From contig JAJYZF010000001.1 in assembly GCA_021800165.1 (NCBI GenBank), positions 1 to 64,000 of the forward strand: DNA of 64,000 nucleotides, read 5' to 3'. Below the pieces are notes generated by a model. The model was not told the DNA's origin and searched no databases. It saw nothing but the letters and a program-made list of their open reading frames with translations. Positions 53,962 through 64,000 of the stretch are shown here, one piece after another; position 1 is the stretch's first letter; the number at the start of each line of letters is the position of its first letter. The stretch comes from Planctomycetota bacterium. GTDB lineage: Bacteria; Planctomycetota; Phycisphaerae; WQYP01. The position numbers and the translations under genes are program-made.

Positions 53962-55401
53962 GTGAAGAAAACACCCGGCAAGTTGCCGTCGGCATACCCG
54001 TTTCCCCGACTTCTGCCGCTGCTGCTGACGCTGCTGCTGACGACGGGCTGCCAATCATACCACAGCAAGCCACTGAATTCGCGAACTGTGGCCCAGGCGT
54101 TGGCCACGCCGTCGTGGCACAAACTGCGTGTTGCGGTACAAGCAACCAGCTTGATCCAATTGCCCAAAACCATGCTCTCGCCCTCGCAGGGCCTGACACC
54201 GAACCGTGCAGCCGCGCTGGCGCTGATTCTCAATCCGTCATTGCGAGCTTTCCGCGACTTGCATGGCGAAGCCTCCGCCCAGCTTTTACAAGCTGGCATT
54301 CTTACCAATCCCCAACTCTCCGCCGACACGAATTTTGTCACTGGCGGCTTCCGCACCAATACCTTTAATGCCTATGGGGTGGGGGTGAGCTGGAATATTC
54401 GCCAACTGATTGATCGCCAAGCCCGCATCAGTGCCGCGCGTTACCAGGTGAAACAGGTGGATCTGGTGGTGGCATGGCGCGAATGGCAGATCGCTCAGGC
54501 GGCCCGACTGGCAGTTTACGCCATGGCCGCCGCCAAGACACAATTGCGAGAGGCCCTGCGTTCCCAGAGCGAGCTTGGCAAGGTCTACACCGTGGCGCGG
54601 CGCGCCAGCAAGCTGGGTCTGGTCACGCTTTTTGACCTTGGATTGGCGCTCCACGCGAGCCAGCAGGCGCAGGCCCTGGTGCTGGCATCCCAGCAGTCTC
54701 TGGCGGAAAGCCAGGTGGCTCTGGCCCAGGCCATGGGGCTGCCAGCGGGCACGACCTTCACCTTAAGTCCGTCCGTCCGGCTGCCGGTCACTTGTCGCTT
54801 GCCCAGCGTAGTGCTACTGGAAAAAAAGGTGGAGCGGCGGCGGCTTGATTTGCTGGCCCTGCACATGGGCTACCAGAGCCAGCAGGAGCGGTTGCGGGCC
54901 GCGGTGCTGCGGCAGTTTCCCAAGGTCGGCATCGGCTTTGTGCAGGCCAGCGACGCTAATAATGTCCACACCACCGGCTTTGGCGTGACCATCAACTTGC
55001 CCATTTTTGACCGTAACCAGGGCCGGATCGCGCAGGCCCGGGCGACGCGCCAGGCGATTTATGACGATTACATCGCGCGCGTGTTTGATGCCCGGGCGGA
55101 TATCGGTGCCGCAGCCGTGAACATCCGGGCGCTGCGGCGGCGCATCAGCCAAGCCCAGTCCGGTGCACGTCAATACAAACTCTTGGCCCAGCGCGAACGG
55201 CGCGGCCTGCGGACGCGGAACCTGGACATTGGGGTTTATGCGGCCGCCGTCGCGCAGGCGGAGCAGGCGCGGATCCAACTGGTAAAGTTGCGTTATCAAC
55301 TCGCCCGGAATCTCATCGCCTTGGAATTGGCTTCCGGCGATGCTCTGGCTAAACCACCTATGCGGCCGGTTGCCGCCGCAGCCTATGGAGAAACACGATG
55401 A
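53962..55401 (+). CDS. Outer-membrane efflux protein (TolC/CusC family)
   Basis: 479 residues. The signal ends in the lipobox TTGC, so it is a lipoprotein like CusC/OprM. The two OEP repeats have long helices (for example QQLIDRQARISAARYQVKQVD) and the second-half ARATRQAIYDDYIARV. It forms the outer-membrane channel of a tripartite pump. The GTG at 53962 has AAAGG 7 bases upstream. It overlaps the next gene by 4 bases (ATGA). Confidence 0.88.
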   Translation: MKKTPGKLPSAYPFPRLLPLLLTLLLTTGCQSYHSKPLNSRTVAQALATPSWHKLRVAVQATSLIQLPKTMLSPSQGLTPNRAAALALILNPSLRAFRDLHGEASAQLLQAGILTNPQLSADTNFVTGGFRTNTFNAYGVGVSWNIRQLIDRQARISAARYQVKQVDLVVAWREWQIAQAARLAVYAMAAAKTQLREALRSQSELGKVYTVARRASKLGLVTLFDLGLALHASQQAQALVLASQQSLAESQVALAQAMGLPAGTTFTLSPSVRLPVTCRLPSVVLLEKKVERRRLDLLALHMGYQSQQERLRAAVLRQFPKVGIGFVQASDANNVHTTGFGVTINLPIFDRNQGRIAQARATRQAIYDDYIARVFDARADIGAAAVNIRALRRRISQAQSGARQYKLLAQRERRGLRTRNLDIGVYAAAVAQAEQARIQLVKLRYQLARNLIALELASGDALAKPPMRPVAAAAYGETR

Positions 55402-56486
55402 AACGTTTTACCGGCTTTATGATTACTGTTCTGGCGCTGGCGGCGGGAATTGCCATCGGCTACGCCTTGGCGAGATGGGGAAAGCCATCCCGCGGCGGTG
55501 CCAGCGACGGCGGCACAAAGCATTCCAGCGCCGTGGCCAGCGTGCAAACCGTATCCATCCGCCTTGGAAAAATCACCCGAGCCGTCGGGGTTTACGGCAA
55601 AGTGACGGCGAATCGTGGATTGGAAAAAAGCGTTTCGGTGGCTTTTGAATCACGTGTGCTCAAGGTCTTCGTGATCGAGAATCAAAGAGTCAAGGCGGGC
55701 CAGCCTTTGCTGCAAATTCAGGCCAGCCCGGCGGAGCGTTTGAAGCTCGCCGAGGCGGCCAACGAGGTGCAGATTACCCAGGCCCAGCTACGCCTGACTC
55801 AAAGCAAATTCCATCTTCAATTGGCCACGCGCGCGGATCTGGCCACCGCCCGCCACGCCCTGGCCATCGCCTCCCTGAAACTCGCCCAACTGCGCCGCCT
55901 GGGAGTGGGAACCGTGACGACGCTGCGGGCCCCGGAGACGGCCACCGTGGCCGAGGTGGCCGCGATTCCCGGCGCGCTGGAACCACGCGGGACCCCGCTG
56001 GTGAATTTACTGTCCCAAAGCGCGATCATGGTGGTATTAAAGGTACTGCCGCCAGAGGTGCGGCACCTGCGCGTCGGGCAAAACCTTACGCTCTCCATCG
56101 CCACCCAGGACGCGGCCATCCATGAGATCGGAACCATCCGTATGATCGCCGGACGGGTTGATCCCCACAGCGGCTTTGTGAACGTGTATGTAACACCGCG
56201 TCAGGCGGCGAACCTGCTGATCGGCGACTACGCTTCCAGCAGGATACCCATCGCCGCAAGCATCGGATTCATCGTGCCACACTCGGCCGTGCTGCCGTGC
56301 CGTGAAGGCGAATGTCTGTTTACCGTGAAAGGCAGGCACGCCGTTGAGCACCTTGTGCGAAAAGGAGTGTCTAACGACCGCGAGGTGGAGGTGCTGGCAC
56401 CTAACTTGCGTGTCGGCGAGCCGGTGGTGATCAGGGGCAATGGGGTTCTGACCAATGGCATGACCGTCGTGGTGAGGAATAAATGA
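55398..56486 (+). CDS. RND efflux membrane fusion protein (HlyD/CusB family)
   Basis: 362 residues. An N-terminal anchor (FMITVLALAAGIAIGYAL) is followed by beta-barrel and lipoyl-like segments with the GKVTANRGLEKSVSVAFESRV and IENQRVKAGQPLLQI pattern, a helical hairpin, and the C-terminal membrane-proximal domain. It bridges the inner-membrane pump and the outer-membrane channel. It is translated from an ATGA overlap with the channel gene and overlaps the pump gene by 4 bases. Confidence 0.9.
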   Translation: MKRFTGFMITVLALAAGIAIGYALARWGKPSRGGASDGGTKHSSAVASVQTVSIRLGKITRAVGVYGKVTANRGLEKSVSVAFESRVLKVFVIENQRVKAGQPLLQIQASPAERLKLAEAANEVQITQAQLRLTQSKFHLQLATRADLATARHALAIASLKLAQLRRLGVGTVTTLRAPETATVAEVAAIPGALEPRGTPLVNLLSQSAIMVVLKVLPPEVRHLRVGQNLTLSIATQDAAIHEIGTIRMIAGRVDPHSGFVNVYVTPRQAANLLIGDYASSRIPIAASIGFIVPHSAVLPCREGECLFTVKGRHAVEHLVRKGVSNDREVEVLAPNLRVGEPVVIRGNGVLTNGMTVVVRNK

Positions 56487-59400
56487 TGAACTTTAATGAA
56501 TGGATTCACCAGCACACCCGCTCGGTGATTTTCGTGATGGTGGTACTGGCCTTGGCGGGCACGCTGGCCGCTTTTATTCTGCCGGTGTCGCTGTTTCCGC
56601 GGGCAAGTTGGCCGCGAATTGAGATAACCGTCAACTCCGGCGACCGCACGGCGAAGATCATCGCGGTGCAGGTAACGTATCCGGTGGAAAAGGCCATTCG
56701 CGCAATTTTGGGTGTGCAGCGGGTTACGTCGACCACCAGCCGCGGCACCGCGGATATTTACGCTGAATTCGGCTGGGGAAAAAACATGGTTCAATCGCTA
56801 CTGCTGGTGCAGTCGGCGGTCAACAATGTGTTGCCGTCTCTGCCGGCCGGCACCACCGCCGTGGTCCGACTGCGCAACCCGACGAATTATCAGGTGATCA
56901 GCTACAGCCTCACCTCTTCGCGGATATCGCCGTCGCGTTTGCGGCGTATTGCGCGGTACCAGATACGGCCGTTACTGCTGGGGATCAAGGGGGTGGCCAG
57001 AGTGGGAGTGGAAGGCGGACAAACCCGGGAATTTCACGTCGTGATAAACCCAGCCGAGCTGGCCGCCCACAAGCTCACCATCAACGACGTCACCCGCGCC
57101 GTGGCGGCCAACAATGTCTTCAAAACCGTCGGAAAAATGGAGGATCACGACAAGCTCTATCTCGTGGTGGCGGATTCGCGGTTTCACGATGCGCAACAAA
57201 TCGGTCGAATTGCGATCACCGCCGTTGGCGGCGGCATCGTGCATCTGCGCGACGTGGCCCACGTGGAGGCATCGTACGCGCCGGTCTGGACACGCGCCAC
57301 CGCCAACGGCCAACCTGCCGTGCTGGTTAACGTTTACGAGCAACCCAGCGGCAACACCGTCAAAATCATCAGCCAGACCCGCGCCGTGATCGCCCGGATC
57401 CAACACAAATTGCCCTCTGGTACCGTGGTTAACCTCTGGTACAACCAAGGCTCCATTCTCACGGAATCGGCGATCAGTGTCCGCGACGCGGTGCTGGTGG
57501 GGCTGGTGATGGCCGTGTTGGTGCTGCTGGTATTTTTGCGCAACTGGAAAATTACGATCCTGGCCACCCTGGTGGTTCCCGCCGCCCTGACCACGACGGT
57601 GTTGCTGCTGCACTTATTTAACATGAGCTTCAACATTATGACGCTCGGAGGGATGGCCGCGGCCGTCGGTTTGATTATCGACGATGCCATCGTGATGATC
57701 GAGCACATTATGCGCCGGGTTGGTGAGAGCGGCGGAACCTATCGCCAGAAGATCATCAGCGCCAGCGGTGAATTCACCCGTCCGCTGGCGGGTTCCTCCG
57801 CTTCGACCATCATCATCTTTGCGCCTTTGGCGTTCTGGTCGAGTCTGGTGGGGGAATTTTTCAAGGCGCTGTCGCTGACCATGGCGGCGGCGTTACTGGT
57901 GTCATTTCTCCTATCCTGGCTGGTGTTGCCGGTGCTGGCTACGAAAATGCTCAATGAAAGAGACGCCATACCTCATAAGCCGGGCTGGCTGACCCGCACC
58001 ATTCATTCCAGCTATGAATGGATGATGCGGCATCTGATTTCCCGGCCGGCGCTGGTGCTGTTGTTGATAGTCCCGGTGCTGGCGTTGGGCTATGTGGCCT
58101 ATCAGCATGTCGGCAGTGGCTTTATGCCGGACATGGATGAGGGCGGGTTTAGCATGTTTTACATCGCGCCATCCGGTGGATCGCTCACGCAAACCGATCA
58201 ACTGCTTCGCCAGGTGGGGCGAATCCTGCGGACCAACCCTTATGTGGCCACCTATTCGCGCCGCACCGGCATGCAGCTCGGCGGCAGCCTGACCGAGTCG
58301 TACAAGGGCGACTATTACGTGCAACTCAAGCCCTTCCCGCGGCCGCCGATTGAGGCGGTCATGGCCAGCATCGCGCGCGATATTCACCACCGGGTGCCGG
58401 GCCTTTACGTTGATCCCGAACAGCTCATGCAGGACCAGATTGGTGATCTGACCGCGGTACCGCAGCCGATCCGCGTGGAGATATTTTCCGACCACCAGAG
58501 CGTTCTGGACCGCCAGGCCCGCAAAGTGCTCGCGGCCATTGAAACCGTGCCGGGCGTGGCCGATGCCCGCAGTGGCGTGGTGCTGGCCGGCGATTCGCTG
58601 TATGTCAAAATCAACTCGGTGGCGGCCGCGATTCACGGCATGACGCCACAACGCGTCGCACGATTCATCCGGGAGTACGTTTACGGCGTGGTGGCCACCA
58701 CTATTCGGCGCGGGCCGCAGATGATCGGCGTAAGGGTTTGGGCACCGGCCGATGAACGGCGCACCGTCGCGGATCTGCAAAAGCTCCGACTGCGGGCACC
58801 AAACGGCCGGCAATTCGCCCTAGGCCAGGTCGCTCAGGTCCAGATCCGCTCTGGTGAGCAGGAAATCGATCACATCAACCTCAAGCGGATGATCGCGGTA
58901 ACAGCGCGAATTCACGGCCGGGATATGGGATCCACCATGGCCCAGGTAAAAAAAGTCCTGAATCGCCCGGGGCTGTTTCCCAAAGGCGTGTATTACCGGC
59001 TTGGCGGACTTTATCATCAGCAACAAATCGCCTTTCGCGGGCTGCTGGTGGTCATGCTCGGCGGCGTGCTGTTGGTGTTTTTGCTGCTGCTGTTTTTGTA
59101 TGAAAGCTTTGGCGCAGCGCTGGCCATGATGGTTATTCCGCTGCTGACGTTGGCGTGTGTATTCATCGGGCTGTGGCTCACCCACACCCAACTCAATATT
59201 TCCTCCATGATGGGCATGACGATGGTAGTGGGCATTGTTACAGAGGTAACTATTTTCTATTATTCGGAGTACCACGAACTGCGGGATCATGAGCACGGCA
59301 TGCGCCGGCTGATTCAGGCCGGCGTAAACCGGATGCGACCTATCGCCATGACCACCATCGCCGCCATTCTTGCCCTGTCGCCGTTGGCGCTGGTGCTAAG

Positions 59401-59518
59401 CCCCGGCGCGGCCATGCAACAACCGCTGGCCATTGCCATCATCAGCGGGCTCATGGTGCAAATGCCGCTGACCCTGCTGGTATTGCCGGTCCTGCTGGGA
59501 TTCCGGCATGAGCATTGA
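56483..59518 (+). CDS. RND family efflux pump, inner-membrane subunit
   Basis: 1011 residues with twelve predicted transmembrane helices and two large periplasmic loops. The TM4 segment AVGLIIDDAIVMIEHIMRR carries the two adjacent Asp of the proton relay. The first loop has LLLVQSAVNNVLPSLPAGT and the second has typical porter subdomains. It exports toxic compounds using the proton gradient. HME (metal) and HAE (drug) types were weighed. The DDA relay is drug-pump-like, while the Cys/His-rich protein upstream suggests metal, so the substrate is left open. It is the last gene of the operon. Confidence 0.92.
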   Translation: MMNFNEWIHQHTRSVIFVMVVLALAGTLAAFILPVSLFPRASWPRIEITVNSGDRTAKIIAVQVTYPVEKAIRAILGVQRVTSTTSRGTADIYAEFGWGKNMVQSLLLVQSAVNNVLPSLPAGTTAVVRLRNPTNYQVISYSLTSSRISPSRLRRIARYQIRPLLLGIKGVARVGVEGGQTREFHVVINPAELAAHKLTINDVTRAVAANNVFKTVGKMEDHDKLYLVVADSRFHDAQQIGRIAITAVGGGIVHLRDVAHVEASYAPVWTRATANGQPAVLVNVYEQPSGNTVKIISQTRAVIARIQHKLPSGTVVNLWYNQGSILTESAISVRDAVLVGLVMAVLVLLVFLRNWKITILATLVVPAALTTTVLLLHLFNMSFNIMTLGGMAAAVGLIIDDAIVMIEHIMRRVGESGGTYRQKIISASGEFTRPLAGSSASTIIIFAPLAFWSSLVGEFFKALSLTMAAALLVSFLLSWLVLPVLATKMLNERDAIPHKPGWLTRTIHSSYEWMMRHLISRPALVLLLIVPVLALGYVAYQHVGSGFMPDMDEGGFSMFYIAPSGGSLTQTDQLLRQVGRILRTNPYVATYSRRTGMQLGGSLTESYKGDYYVQLKPFPRPPIEAVMASIARDIHHRVPGLYVDPEQLMQDQIGDLTAVPQPIRVEIFSDHQSVLDRQARKVLAAIETVPGVADARSGVVLAGDSLYVKINSVAAAIHGMTPQRVARFIREYVYGVVATTIRRGPQMIGVRVWAPADERRTVADLQKLRLRAPNGRQFALGQVAQVQIRSGEQEIDHINLKRMIAVTARIHGRDMGSTMAQVKKVLNRPGLFPKGVYYRLGGLYHQQQIAFRGLLVVMLGGVLLVFLLLLFLYESFGAALAMMVIPLLTLACVFIGLWLTHTQLNISSMMGMTMVVGIVTEVTIFYYSEYHELRDHEHGMRRLIQAGVNRMRPIAMTTIAAILALSPLALVLSPGAAMQQPLAIAIISGLMVQMPLTLLVLPVLLGFRHEH

Positions 59519-59984: not shown

Positions 59985-61115
59985 TTACCCCAAATGTGAC
60001 CGCAGCCAGGCGAAAGCAAGCGCCTGCATCCGCGGGTCAAAACAGTGGGGTACGGGGAAAAACCGCCCCACATAATTTTGGGCGGCTGCGGCGCTGCGGT
60101 AATGCTGCCGCAGAACCTGATGCGCCGCCCGCATTCCGGAGAGAGGAAACAATTCATCACGCGAAGCATATTGCACCATCAACGGAGAGGGTGCCCGACA
60201 GGCGGCTAAGTCCGGCCAGTCGCCCACCCGACTTAGGCCCGGCGGCCAGAACATCCACGTATGGTATTTTACATGCGTATCCACCATCGGCTGGTAGCGG
60301 CTCATCATGCCCACAATAACCGTCGCATGAATGTGGTTGCAGGTGGCCTGCAGCAGCGCCGCGCGGCAGCCACCGCCCGAAAGCCCCACACAGCCGATGC
60401 GCTGCGCCGCGACATCATCCCGCGAGCGCAGATAGTTTACCGCCACGCGATCTTCATAACTTACCATCGCCGCCAACGTGGTGCCCAGCAGCGTGCAGTA
60501 CTTTTCCACCACGTGTTCATGTTCGGCGGCGGCCTGGTTGTACGTGCGAATTGCCGCCCGGGTGACGGGAAAGGTTTTCCGGTGGTGCTGGAGGGCCTTG
60601 GCACGTATCCACAGAGGCATGGCGGAAAGCGGGAAGCGCCGACTTCCCCAGAGAAACACGTCCGGCACCAGCACCACAAAGCCCTGTTCGGCCAAGGCAT
60701 TGGCGTAGGCCCGTCCGCCGTAGAACACGCGGCGAAAAGCCTGCAAAAATGGAGCCGGACCGCCCGGGCCATCCGCAATTTTCTCCTTGCCGTAGTATTT
60801 GAATCCGCCATGATCATGTAGGGCAACGATCGCCGGCAACCGCCGGCCGGGCGCGTGGCGGGGCCGCAGCAGCCAGGCGCGGGTGCGGGGGCCATAACCC
60901 ACCGACCAGGAGATCTCTTCACCGATGACGCGGGGCGTTTGCCATTGTGCATCAATCGTGGGAGCCTGGGGTTTTTCATCTCCGATGGAAAAATCCAACA
61001 CTTGGCGCACGATTCGTCGGGCGGTTGTTCCCGGCGGCAAAGACGGAAAAAGAGCATGGGCGGCTTTTGCGCCGGCCACCCAATCGCTGTATGGGCCGAG
61101 ATCCTGGTAAAGCAT
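59985..61115 (-). CDS. Alpha/beta hydrolase (esterase-like)
   Basis: About 376 residues with a serine nucleophile in GLSGGG, a candidate acid Asp in YASRDELFP and a His in FPVPHCFD near the C-terminus. The oxyanion-side motif ALHDHGGFK precedes it. The architecture resembles acetyl-xylan-esterase or dienelactone-hydrolase-type enzymes encoded by planctomycetes. No signal peptide was seen. The ATG at 61115 with AAGGA 9 bases upstream was preferred to the TTG one codon earlier. Substrate unknown. Confidence 0.8.
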   Translation of the reverse strand: MLYQDLGPYSDWVAGAKAAHALFPSLPPGTTARRIVRQVLDFSIGDEKPQAPTIDAQWQTPRVIGEEISWSVGYGPRTRAWLLRPRHAPGRRLPAIVALHDHGGFKYYGKEKIADGPGGPAPFLQAFRRVFYGGRAYANALAEQGFVVLVPDVFLWGSRRFPLSAMPLWIRAKALQHHRKTFPVTRAAIRTYNQAAAEHEHVVEKYCTLLGTTLAAMVSYEDRVAVNYLRSRDDVAAQRIGCVGLSGGGCRAALLQATCNHIHATVIVGMMSRYQPMVDTHVKYHTWMFWPPGLSRVGDWPDLAACRAPSPLMVQYASRDELFPLSGMRAAHQVLRQHYRSAAAAQNYVGRFFPVPHCFDPRMQALAFAWLRSHLG

Positions 61116-61563
61116 CAAAAACGTCCTTCAAGGTGCCCATGCCGGTGAAGAAAAGTTTTGACCCCTGGCGGGTCGCTTGATCGCACGGGCAAGCCGGGGC
61201 AATTGTAACCACTTGGCAAAGTGCATGTAAGGCCGCAAAAAACCCTGGGGCCGGCCTCCGCCTTCCGCCGGCTGCGGCACAATTGACGCTAATTGCCGTC
61301 GGTGCCGACGAGGCGGGGATGTTGGCGGCTCAAAGTCGATCGGCGACCCGCTTATCGTATACAATTCCGTCAATGATTAAAATAGAAACGCCCGCTGGCC
61401 GCAGCGGGATGGGCTAGATGAACAGGTTTGGAGTCGCCGTTTTTCATTGGGGATCCGCCTGAACGGAACCATCGCTGGCTTCGGCATGCACCAAGAAGAT
61501 AGCGGAGCGCTCACATTTCCAGGAATCTTCGGGTATTCTAACGGATCGAAAGGAACGCAGGCC
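61116..61563. other. Intergenic region before the ATPase/DUF4276 pair
   Basis: No gene is supported. A hairpin CCCGCTG-GCCG-CAGCGGG (61391-61408) lies in it; on the minus strand it is followed by a T-rich stretch. The ATPase frame extends upstream to 61447 but those residues are not family-like. Divergent promoters are expected. Confidence 0.4.
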
Positions 61564-62751
61564 ATGAAACTTGAATCTCTTAAGCTCAAGAACTTCAAGG
61601 CATTCAAAAATGCTGAGCTTAAAAATATTCCACGCATGTGCGTGCTGGTTGGAGCCAACGGCACCGGCAAGTCCACGCTGCTTAGTGTGTTTGGCTTCCT
61701 GAAGGATGCCCTTACCGACGATGTGCCCATCGCTCTTACCCGTCTTGGTGGCAGCCGCGGCTTTCAAGAAGTACGCAGCCGCAACGCCTCTGGCCCGATC
61801 GAAATTGAATTGAAATTTCGTCAGGAGGAGGGCTCGCCTTTAATAACCTATTCGCTCGCGATTGATGAGGTTGGCGGCAAGCCGTCAGTGGCGCGCGAAG
61901 TGCTCAAGTACCGCCGCGGCAGCAGGGGGAAGCCCTGGCATTTTCTGGATTTTGCCAACGGCGAAGGGACCGCTGTCACCAATGAGCCTGAAAGTGTAAC
62001 GACGGAAAGTGAACTCATCCGCGAAACCCAAACGCTTAAATCGCCCGATACGCTTGCCATCCGGGGTTTGGCGCAGTTCAAAAAGTTTCCGGCCGCGATG
62101 GCTTTGGGTGAGCTTATATCCAACTGGCATATCTCCGATTTTCATATCCAGCGGGCCAGGCCCGAGCAGGAGGCCGGCCACGCCGAACATCTCTCCAAGG
62201 AAGGAGAAAATTTGGCCTTGGTGACAGAGTTTCTCTACAAGCGTCATCGGGATGTTTTTGATAAGATTATTGATCGCCTCAAACATCGCGTTCCGGGCGT
62301 TACTCAAGTGGACGCAAAGACCACCGAAGAAGGGCGGGTTCTATTACGGTTTATGGATGGAGCCTTCACCGACCCTTTTCTCGCTCGCCACGTTTCGGAT
62401 GGAACCATCAAGATGCTGGCGTACCTCATCATCCTTTACGATCCTAAGCCACATCCTCTGCTGTGCGTCGAGGAGCCCGAAAACCATTTATACCCAACGC
62501 TACTGGCGGAGCTAGCCGAGGAGTTCCGGGACTATGCGCGCCGAGGCGGGCAGGTTTTTATCTCAACACATTCTCCGGACTTTCTCAATGCATGCCGGCT
62601 TGAAGAGGTTTTCTGGCTGGTAAAGGACCAAGGATATACATTCGTCAAACGTGCCTCCGCCGACCAGCAAATCGTGGATTACGTGAGTGCCGGTGATAAG
62701 CTGGGTTACCTTTGGAAGCAGAGCTTTTTCGAAGGGGCAGCCCCGCAATGA
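61564..62751 (+). CDS. ABC/OLD-like AAA ATPase of a predicted defence pair
   Basis: 395 residues. An ABC-type ATPase of the AAA_21/OLD kind: Walker A GANGTGKS (30-37), an SDGTIKMLAYL signature-like stretch, Walker B LLCVEEPENHLYP, and a His-switch THSPDF. OLD and PARIS (AriA) ATPases sense phage and control a nuclease partner. Here a DUF4276 gene overlaps by 4 bases, exactly the layout of such two-gene systems. The ATG at 61564 has AAAGG upstream. An exact match to a named system cannot be claimed from sequence alone. Confidence 0.82.
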   Translation: MKLESLKLKNFKAFKNAELKNIPRMCVLVGANGTGKSTLLSVFGFLKDALTDDVPIALTRLGGSRGFQEVRSRNASGPIEIELKFRQEEGSPLITYSLAIDEVGGKPSVAREVLKYRRGSRGKPWHFLDFANGEGTAVTNEPESVTTESELIRETQTLKSPDTLAIRGLAQFKKFPAAMALGELISNWHISDFHIQRARPEQEAGHAEHLSKEGENLALVTEFLYKRHRDVFDKIIDRLKHRVPGVTQVDAKTTEEGRVLLRFMDGAFTDPFLARHVSDGTIKMLAYLIILYDPKPHPLLCVEEPENHLYPTLLAELAEEFRDYARRGGQVFISTHSPDFLNACRLEEVFWLVKDQGYTFVKRASADQQIVDYVSAGDKLGYLWKQSFFEGAAPQ

Positions 62752-63317
62752 GCGAACTGGTCTTTCTGCTGGAAGAGCAATCCGCCCGCGCGATGCTTAT
62801 GGGCCTTCTGCCACGCCTGTTGCCGGGAAACATCAACGTGCGGTACATCGTTTTCGAGGGCAAGAGTGACCTGGAAGGCCAGATGGTTCGCCGCTTGCGA
62901 GGGTACCGATCATCTGGCGCTCGATTCGTAATCCTGCGTGATCAGGATTCGGGCAATTGCAAGGAGGTTAAAGCCTCGCTGGTCGAAAAATGCCAACAGG
63001 CCGGGCGAAGCGCACTGGTTCGCATCGCCTGCCACGAGTTGGAAAGTTGGTACCTGGCCGATTTGGCCGCCGTTGGAAAGGGCCTGGACATTCCCAACCT
63101 CGCGCAGAAGCAGACCAAGGCGAAGTATCGGCGGCCGGATTCGCTGGCCAACGCCTGCCAAGAGTTGGAAAAGCTCACCCAGGGGTGCTATCAAACTGTC
63201 AGTGGTTCGCGCGCAATAGGCCCCCATCTTGACATCGACAGTCGCCGATCTGGAAGCTTCGCGGTGTTTGTTGACGGGATCGGGGAGATCGCGGCTCAGT
63301 TGGCAGGGCCAGGTTGA
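62748..63317 (+). CDS. DUF4276 TOPRIM-like protein, partner of the ATPase
   Basis: 189 residues. A Glu at the end of the first strand (LVFLLEE) and DQD at 65-67 in LRDQDSGN are placed like the acidic residues of TOPRIM nucleases. CHELESWYL (95-103), YRRPDS and the late SGSFAVFV are the DUF4276 pattern. By analogy with OLD-family nucleases and AriB of PARIS it is the likely effector, probably cutting nucleic acid on activation. It starts inside the stop of the ATPase gene (ATGA), so the pair is translationally coupled. Confidence 0.78.
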   Translation: MSELVFLLEEQSARAMLMGLLPRLLPGNINVRYIVFEGKSDLEGQMVRRLRGYRSSGARFVILRDQDSGNCKEVKASLVEKCQQAGRSALVRIACHELESWYLADLAAVGKGLDIPNLAQKQTKAKYRRPDSLANACQELEKLTQGCYQTVSGSRAIGPHLDIDSRRSGSFAVFVDGIGEIAAQLAGPG

Positions 63318-63768
63318 GCAGGTCTATGAGCCCGTCCAAGTAGTCGGCAATAAACGTGGTACGTCCTTTTAACACAAAGACTTACCTATTTTTACAATAA
63401 AATACTTAAGTCATTATTCTACATGAAGTTACGACTTTTGCCTGGCATTACTTGGACAGGCTTCCAGGGCAGTAGCGCGGGGCTGTTCGCCCTCCCTCGC
63501 CCCATTGTTAGCCCGCCCATTTATTGCGGGGGCGAAAATGGCCCCATTTAGCAGTCGCTTTCGTGGTGAACCGCCAACCGCCAGCGGGGAAATCTCAAAG
63601 CTGTGGTGGCGTTGTATTTTCACATCTGTGAATATGTCTTGTGGTCCAACCTCGTCGGCCTGATTTGGTAAAATGATATTAGAGGCCGTGGGTTCCTGGT
63701 GCCACTCGTTCGCATCTCGCAACGCGGGCTCGCGAGGCTCGGCCGTGTATTTAAAAAAGGACGTATAC
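63318..63768. other. AT-rich intergenic region
   Basis: No gene is supported. A clearly AT-rich stretch at about 63375-63425 contrasts with the flanks and may hold the promoter of the gene at 63769 or mark foreign DNA. An antisense frame of 115 codons (63429-63776) has no family features. Confidence 0.4.
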
Positions 63769-64000
63769 ATGAACACATGTGGACATACTCAAACCGAACG
63801 GAAGACTGCCGATTACCTGGTTCGGCACCTTCCAGAAATTATTAACAAGCACCCCGGCAGTGATGTCTTTTTTGAATCTGACGAGACGGGAGCCATCATC
63901 CAGCACACGTATGACGATGCGGTCGCTAAGGATTGGCAGCCGCGCAACGGGCCTTGTACAGTTCCGCAAATTTCAGATTATGTTTTCCTGGAGGATGGAA
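63769..64000 (+). CDS. Partial gene running off the right edge, unknown function
   Basis: An ATG at 63769 with GGA about 7-8 bases upstream opens a frame of at least 77 codons with no stop before the window ends, so the track did not list it. The product is soluble, acidic and His-containing (RKTADYLVRHLPEIINKHPGS). No family was recognised. Being next to the predicted defence pair it may be accessory too. Incomplete at its 3' end. Confidence 0.5.
   Translation, partial: MNTCGHTQTERKTADYLVRHLPEIINKHPGSDVFFESDETGAIIQHTYDDAVAKDWQPRNGPCTVPQISDYVFLEDG

Follow-up and report, generated by a model that had tools for sequence, protein, structure and literature searches.

An OLD-type ATPase and a DUF4276 protein with a predicted TOPRIM-like fold form a HEC-01 candidate defense pair in a planctomycete genome

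Two overlapping genes lie at the end of the window (by which we mean the whole 64,000-nucleotide stretch analyzed, contig C7:1-64000 of a fragmented 4.37-Mb planctomycete genome). Judged by sequence, they add a member to HEC-01, a candidate family that is already catalogued, and do not represent a new kind of system; they probably constitute a two-gene anti-phage (or anti-mobile-element) defense module, in which an ABC ATPase would gate a predicted TOPRIM nuclease. Using the HEC-01 models of PADLOC-DB 2.0.0, the ATPase scored 645 bits to PDLC04144 across residues 1-395 of 395, and the DUF4276 protein 269 bits to PDLC04143 across residues 1-185. The best PADLOC matches of the ATPase other than HEC-01 were AriA (113 bits), AbiLi (90), NsnB (88), and MAD3 (82); the DUF4276 protein had no PADLOC match outside the HEC-01 models. 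The A/B labels of PDLC04143 and PDLC04144 in this release are swapped with respect to the other HEC-01 models, the ATPase being B and the DUF4276 protein A.

HEC stands for Hma-embedded candidate; the HECs were published as guilt-by-embedding systems, and activity has been shown for some of them, e.g., HEC-06. A search of the available papers found the term DUF4276 nowhere, and the defense system HEC-01 in a single bacterial paper, as an annotation made by a tool; no experimental characterization of this catalogued candidate was found there. According to a 2026 paper, TOPRIM-linked OLD-ABC operons were first described by Krishnan 2020, in an ABC-ATPase classification. A preliminary description of this DNA had proposed an antiphage pair of an ATPase and a TOPRIM protein, possibly a variant not yet characterized, and had recommended a PADLOC search. 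That search returned the full-length HEC-01 matches just given, and the proposed novelty was thus only half right: the combination was already in PADLOC-DB, although an experimental characterization was not found. The remainder of the proposal, namely an OLD-type ATPase, a TOPRIM-like partner, an accessory site, and defense or prophage contexts, held up.

Table 1. Positions of the gene pair, its conserved motifs, and the surrounding variable region in the window.
Feature	Position	Strand	Evidence
OLD/PtuA-type ABC ATPase, 395 aa (PADLOC HEC-01 ATPase component)	61564..62751	+	AAA_21, PDLC04144, AlphaFold2, Foldseek
Walker A GANGTGKS, residues 30-37	61651..61674	+	G30, N32, G33, G35, and K36 invariant, 44 homologues
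ABC signature-like motif VSDGTIK, residues 277-283	62392..62412	+	S278, D279, G280, and T281 invariant
Walker B LLCVEE, residues 299-304	62458..62475	+	L299 and E304 invariant; E303 nearly so
H-loop His336	62569..62571	+	H336, S337, and P338 invariant
ATGA stop/start overlap of the ATPase and DUF4276 genes	62748..62751	+	4-base overlap kept in 31/45 relatives
DUF4276 protein, 189 aa, predicted TOPRIM-fold nuclease (PADLOC HEC-01 partner)	62748..63317	+	PF14103, PDLC04143, AlphaFold2, 6nk8, profile match
Glu9-Glu10, end of strand 1 (TOPRIM acidic residue position)	62772..62777	+	invariant; aligned to 'EG' of OLD TOPRIM
Asp65-x-Asp67, end of strand 3 (TOPRIM DxD)	62940..62948	+	invariant; aligned to DxD of OLD TOPRIM
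HELESW motif, residues 96-101	63033..63050	+	E97, L98, E99, and S100 invariant; aligned to OLD TOPRIM 'TLE' region
Variable region, ~7.8 kb, part inside the window, running on to contig position 68,964	61131..64000		alignment breakpoints

The anatomy of the pair is summarized in Table 1. A TTG codon 117 bases upstream would lengthen the ATPase ORF, but the ATG at 61564 is preferred because homologues align from it. The ATGA overlap between the two genes probably reflects translational coupling. The preliminary description had given both ORFs with their coordinates, the overlap, and the numbering of D65 and D67, all of them exactly. In Pfam, the ATPase matched AAA_21 with 121 bits (cut-off 27; E 1e-34), and its partner matched DUF4276 (PF14103) with 37.3 against a cut-off of 30.2 (E 4.4e-9). 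The Walker A, signature, and Walker B motifs and the H-loop histidine of the ATPase are invariant or nearly so across its homologues, and on that sequence evidence a working ATPase is expected. Its AlphaFold2 model has a pLDDT of 89.6, and Foldseek places it with PtuA (from retron and Septu complexes), Rad50/SMC heads, and the T. scotoductus OLD protein (TsOLD), with E-values of ~1e-13 to 5e-11.

The DUF4276 protein is predicted, from its modeled structure, to have a TOPRIM-like fold and is a candidate metal-dependent nuclease. Searches of the PDB by sequence, using either the single protein or a profile, yielded no match, and consequently only fold and profile comparisons are informative. AlphaFold2, run with a homologue alignment, gave a model with a mean pLDDT of 95.9 and the order b1-a-b2-a-b3-a-b4 (strands at residues 3-8, 30-35, 58-65, and 89-94, with helices between); an acidic residue follows strand 1 and the DxD follows strand 3. 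Such a beta/alpha order, with acidic residues ending strands 1 and 3, is the TOPRIM arrangement. The first-ranked Foldseek match in the PDB, of moderate strength (probability 1.00, E 2.6e-3, TM 0.48), was 6nk8, which comprises the TOPRIM domain in the C-terminal region of BpOLD, the OLD protein from B. pseudomallei; all other PDB matches were weaker by E-value. Aligned to a profile of OLD-like TOPRIM domains drawn from related genomes (an earlier run used a slightly different set), DUF4276 scored 24.1, whereas the maximum in 200 column-shuffled controls was 20.5, and the two profiles are in register at E9/E10, at the DxD, and at the HELESW/TLE region. The hhalign probability was low, 7-10%, despite a score above that of 200/200 shuffles, and this profile match is taken as support for the relationship, not as proof of it. 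Invariant residues among 44 aligned DUF4276 proteins include E9, E10, S12, G38, D41, D65, D67, K75, R92, E97, E99, S100, D105, D131, and S168; E97 and E99 could possibly serve as further metal ligands. The Glu...DxD pattern to which the preliminary description drew attention is therefore retained by the homologues at E9/E10 and D65/D67. That description had also named a second protein without a TOPRIM fold as an outcome that would speak against its proposal; the AlphaFold2 model is instead TOPRIM-like and, among PDB entries, matches the TOPRIM domain of an OLD protein best.

A search of 84,980 species genomes for relatives of the DUF4276 protein yielded 45 loci, scattered over Planctomycetota, Verrucomicrobia, Proteobacteria, Campylobacterales, Clostridia-type Firmicutes, Bacteroidales, Elusimicrobia, Nitrospinota, and others. 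The pairing is obligate among these relatives: the ATPase gene lies directly upstream of the DUF4276 gene and on the same strand at all 45, an arrangement that is therefore not due to chance. Both frames are near full length at 39 of the loci, the others being broken or cut by contig ends. The identities of the two proteins are correlated across pairs (Spearman 0.75), and the ATPase and DUF4276 genes thus mostly travel together. There are individual departures from this pattern. At two loci from the UBA6015 MAG (L006 and L009), the ATPases are only 62% identical but the DUF4276 proteins are 85% identical, and almost identical over the C-terminal half, which, from sequence, suggests recombination within the nuclease gene or else an assembly artifact. 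In Pararhodospirillum oryzae (L039:6850-8585), the DUF4276 protein is 47% identical to that of the window but the ATPase only 33%, possibly a sign of partner exchange. The Pseudomonas plasmid pGLE121P3 (L071, 7995-9954) carries, in a region of conjugation genes, a related ATPase (37%), after which comes a 220 amino acid protein in which BLAST detected no similarity to the DUF4276 protein of the window (P0002).

The distribution of the pair is patchy. DUF4276 proteins of the window's profile were found in 21 of 294 genomes of the phylum, and the pair was absent from 4/4 same-genus genomes, not all of them complete. Near-orthologues (71-90%) of the pair occur in four genomes belonging to other genera of the family (G009, G017, G022, and G024), and there is one additional fragment at a contig edge. 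Only six of 5,426 complete E. coli genomes carry the pair, and patchiness is thus not attributable only to MAG incompleteness. The source genome itself contains two more pairs of an ATPase and a DUF4276-like protein, both of divergent subfamilies, at C219:789-2742 (L078) and C197:10467-12217 (L049); the ATPase on C219 is 43% identical to that of the window.

The preliminary description had regarded this end of the window as accessory-looking, and the pair indeed lies inside the ~7.8-kb stretch that does not align to three same-genus genomes. The alignment breaks off at 61,130 and is picked up again at 68,964, and the flanks are conserved in all three, with a hydrolase gene (59985-61118) on one side and rplQ/rpoA on the other. 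The variable region is defined by its breakpoints only, as the two flanks fall on different contigs in the same-genus genomes. A small ORF and several unassigned ORFs lie 3' of the pair, followed by the ribosomal alpha/spc operon, whose genes we take from their sequences to be rplQ, rpoA, rpsK, rpsM, map, adk, secY, and so on. The nearest neighbors of the window pair had no Pfam match and no clear defense match, and there are no Hma genes at the locus. Elsewhere in the variable region (C7 66780-68575; L048:6781-8576), two overlapping genes resemble an AbiE-like pair by eye, the second being nucleotidyltransferase-like; neither had a Pfam match. A stretch of 43-46 bases at C7 64379-64424, also inside the variable region, is matched twice near the hydrolase gene in one same-genus genome (L077) and, judged by sequence, may be a dispersed short repeat. 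Upstream of the region, a three-gene operon (window 53962-59518) is, judged by its sequence, an ordinary efflux system, made up of a CzcA-like RND pump with its periplasmic adaptor and outer-membrane efflux protein.

The genes adjoining the relatives differ from locus to locus. At L036, an HmaC gene (1595 bits over 1-943) lies directly downstream, overlapping the pair at its end; on the upstream side the contig breaks off before any HmaA or HmaB gene could come into view. A DrmD-like SNF2 helicase gene precedes the pair and a type III methylase gene follows it at L005, a type III methylase gene directly overlaps the pair at L010, and Cas3 is among the neighbors at L041. Several homologues adjoin ordinary metabolic genes (RsgA, glycosyltransferase, oxidoreductase, and MurB). 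Since the neighbors vary and include such ordinary genes, the pair is judged to be mobile and not bound to one pathway. The preliminary description had allowed that consistent embedding of homologous pairs in a non-defense pathway would count against it; the contexts are varied and include defense genes, prophages, and plasmids. A scan of 132 neighbor proteins matched 146 PADLOC families, corresponding to at least ~10 distinct proteins by reading of the table, whereas 0/38 of the window's own proteins matched; the latter is a small control from a single genome, and the enrichment for defense genes is suggestive only.

Mobile elements carry the pair as well. It occurs on plasmid pSYSM of Synechocystis PCC 6803, where it stands among toxin-antitoxin genes and a phosphorothioation-associated methyltransferase gene, and on a conjugative plasmid of Pseudanabaena. 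In an IMG/VR contig (L099), it lies between a phage repressor gene and an integrase gene, together with tail genes and a P2-type replication endonuclease gene; the order repressor, pair, integrase recurs in Yersinia alsatica. All three of the E. coli carriers inspected (of the six found) have the pair between the cI repressor and integrase genes of P2-like prophages, at two chromosomal sites; one such copy is at 3276628-3278375 of NZ_CP024141.1. Sequence similar to the E. coli prophage query was present in ~1,130 genomes, but nearly all of the matches listed comprised the integrase alone, and the pair is therefore rare, exchangeable cargo. No DUF4276 relative was found at E<=1e-3 in the phage genome collection. 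The cI-integrase interval of P2-related Vibrionaceae phages is a hotspot containing RM, Septu, and PARIS systems (Rousset et al. 2022; PMC9122126), and the corresponding position of the pair in E. coli prophages is the strongest context argument for a role in defense.

How the pair would act is suggested mainly by PARIS, in which hexameric AriA sequesters the TOPRIM tRNase AriB until it senses a phage protein and lets AriB go (PMC12409363). By analogy, we would expect the ATPase to be the sensor and gate, which dimerizes or oligomerizes, senses a sign of infection, and controls its DUF4276 partner. The latter would be an active two-metal TOPRIM nuclease using Glu9/Glu10, Asp65, Asp67, and perhaps Glu97/Glu99. 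Once triggered, this protein would be set free or activated and would cut nucleic acid; from this scheme we infer that the pair defends abortively, the most likely outcome being a stop in growth or death of the infected cell, as with PARIS. Because the separately encoded TOPRIM protein of PARIS is a tRNase, we lean slightly toward RNA (tRNA) rather than DNA as the substrate.

The main competitor is a variant of the defense reading and compatible with it: the pair may be a split, two-subunit DNA nuclease of the OLD/Gabija kind, gated by its ATPase and directed at incoming DNA, and not an abortive tRNase. The nearest structure to the DUF4276 model is the TOPRIM domain of a DNA nuclease, OLD, but the putative nuclease is encoded apart from the ATPase as a small protein of its own, like that of PARIS, and there is no helicase gene that regularly accompanies the pair; we consider this version quite possible though not the favored one. 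More tentatively, and with some doubt, DUF4276 proteins might make up a TOPRIM effector family of their own, differing from AriB and OLD in substrate or trigger (e.g., another RNA target), held by the OLD-type ATPase and forming the effector half of a widely transferred abortive system for P2-like inter-phage competition. A different kind of explanation is addiction, similar to that of toxin-antitoxin systems, or plasmid or prophage maintenance: the ATPase would restrain a toxic TOPRIM nuclease, and the advantage would be retention of the element. Overlapping genes, carriage on plasmids and prophages, the company kept on pSYSM, and the Pfam label of AAA_21 ('putative AbiEii toxin, Type IV TA system') are all in keeping with this explanation, but most copies were found on contigs without a mobile flag, the ATPase resembles known sensors in its large size and strong conservation, and one copy overlaps HmaC. 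We judge addiction to be improbable as the main function, but addiction and defense are not exclusive and both could hold. A housekeeping role in DNA repair or RNA processing, apart from any conflict, has in its favor the RecF/Rad50-like N-terminus of the ATPase but is scarcely credible for a pair so patchy in the phylum, the genus, and E. coli, scattered over distant phyla, and carried by prophages and plasmids.

The defense reading thus provides a specific mechanistic hypothesis for the HEC-01 candidate, with DUF4276 as a TOPRIM nuclease under the control of an OLD-type ATPase. The planctomycete copy by itself is only one more member of the family; the additions made here are structural support for the view that DUF4276 is a TOPRIM nuclease and the presence of E. 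coli copies in P2-like prophages, which are readily testable.

Among known systems, PARIS shares with the pair a two-gene organization, an ABC/OLD-type ATPase with a separate TOPRIM nuclease, and a home in P2/P4-type prophage hotspots. The partner here is, however, a DUF4276 protein, with no AriB or DUF4435 match at E<=1, and the ATPase has 395 amino acids as against 464 in the AriA chains of the PDB and is far closer to HEC-01 than to AriA (645 versus 113 bits). OLD class 1 proteins and Gabija (GajA) combine the same ATPase and TOPRIM folds, and the DUF4276 model finds its best PDB match in the TOPRIM domain of an OLD protein, but the pair is two genes and not one chain, no GajB-like helicase neighbor was seen, and the DUF4276 protein had no PF20469 match at E<=1. 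With the NCBIfam models for MADS, the ATPase resembles MAD3 (119 bits) and the DUF4276 protein weakly resembles MAD4 (12.6 bits), both far below the curated cut-offs of 420 and 160. AbiL is counted among the ABC ATPase plus TOPRIM systems in the AriB paper (PMC12409363), and the ATPase matches AbiLi (90 bits), whereas its partner had no AbiLii match at E<=1 and no RloB match. PtuA of Septu and retrons is the closest PDB fold to the ATPase, but the partners of PtuA are HNH nucleases (PtuB) and not TOPRIM/DUF4276 proteins. Only HEC-01 differed from the pair in no feature that could be compared: both proteins match over their full length, the two genes are adjacent, and one relative (L036) overlaps HmaC.
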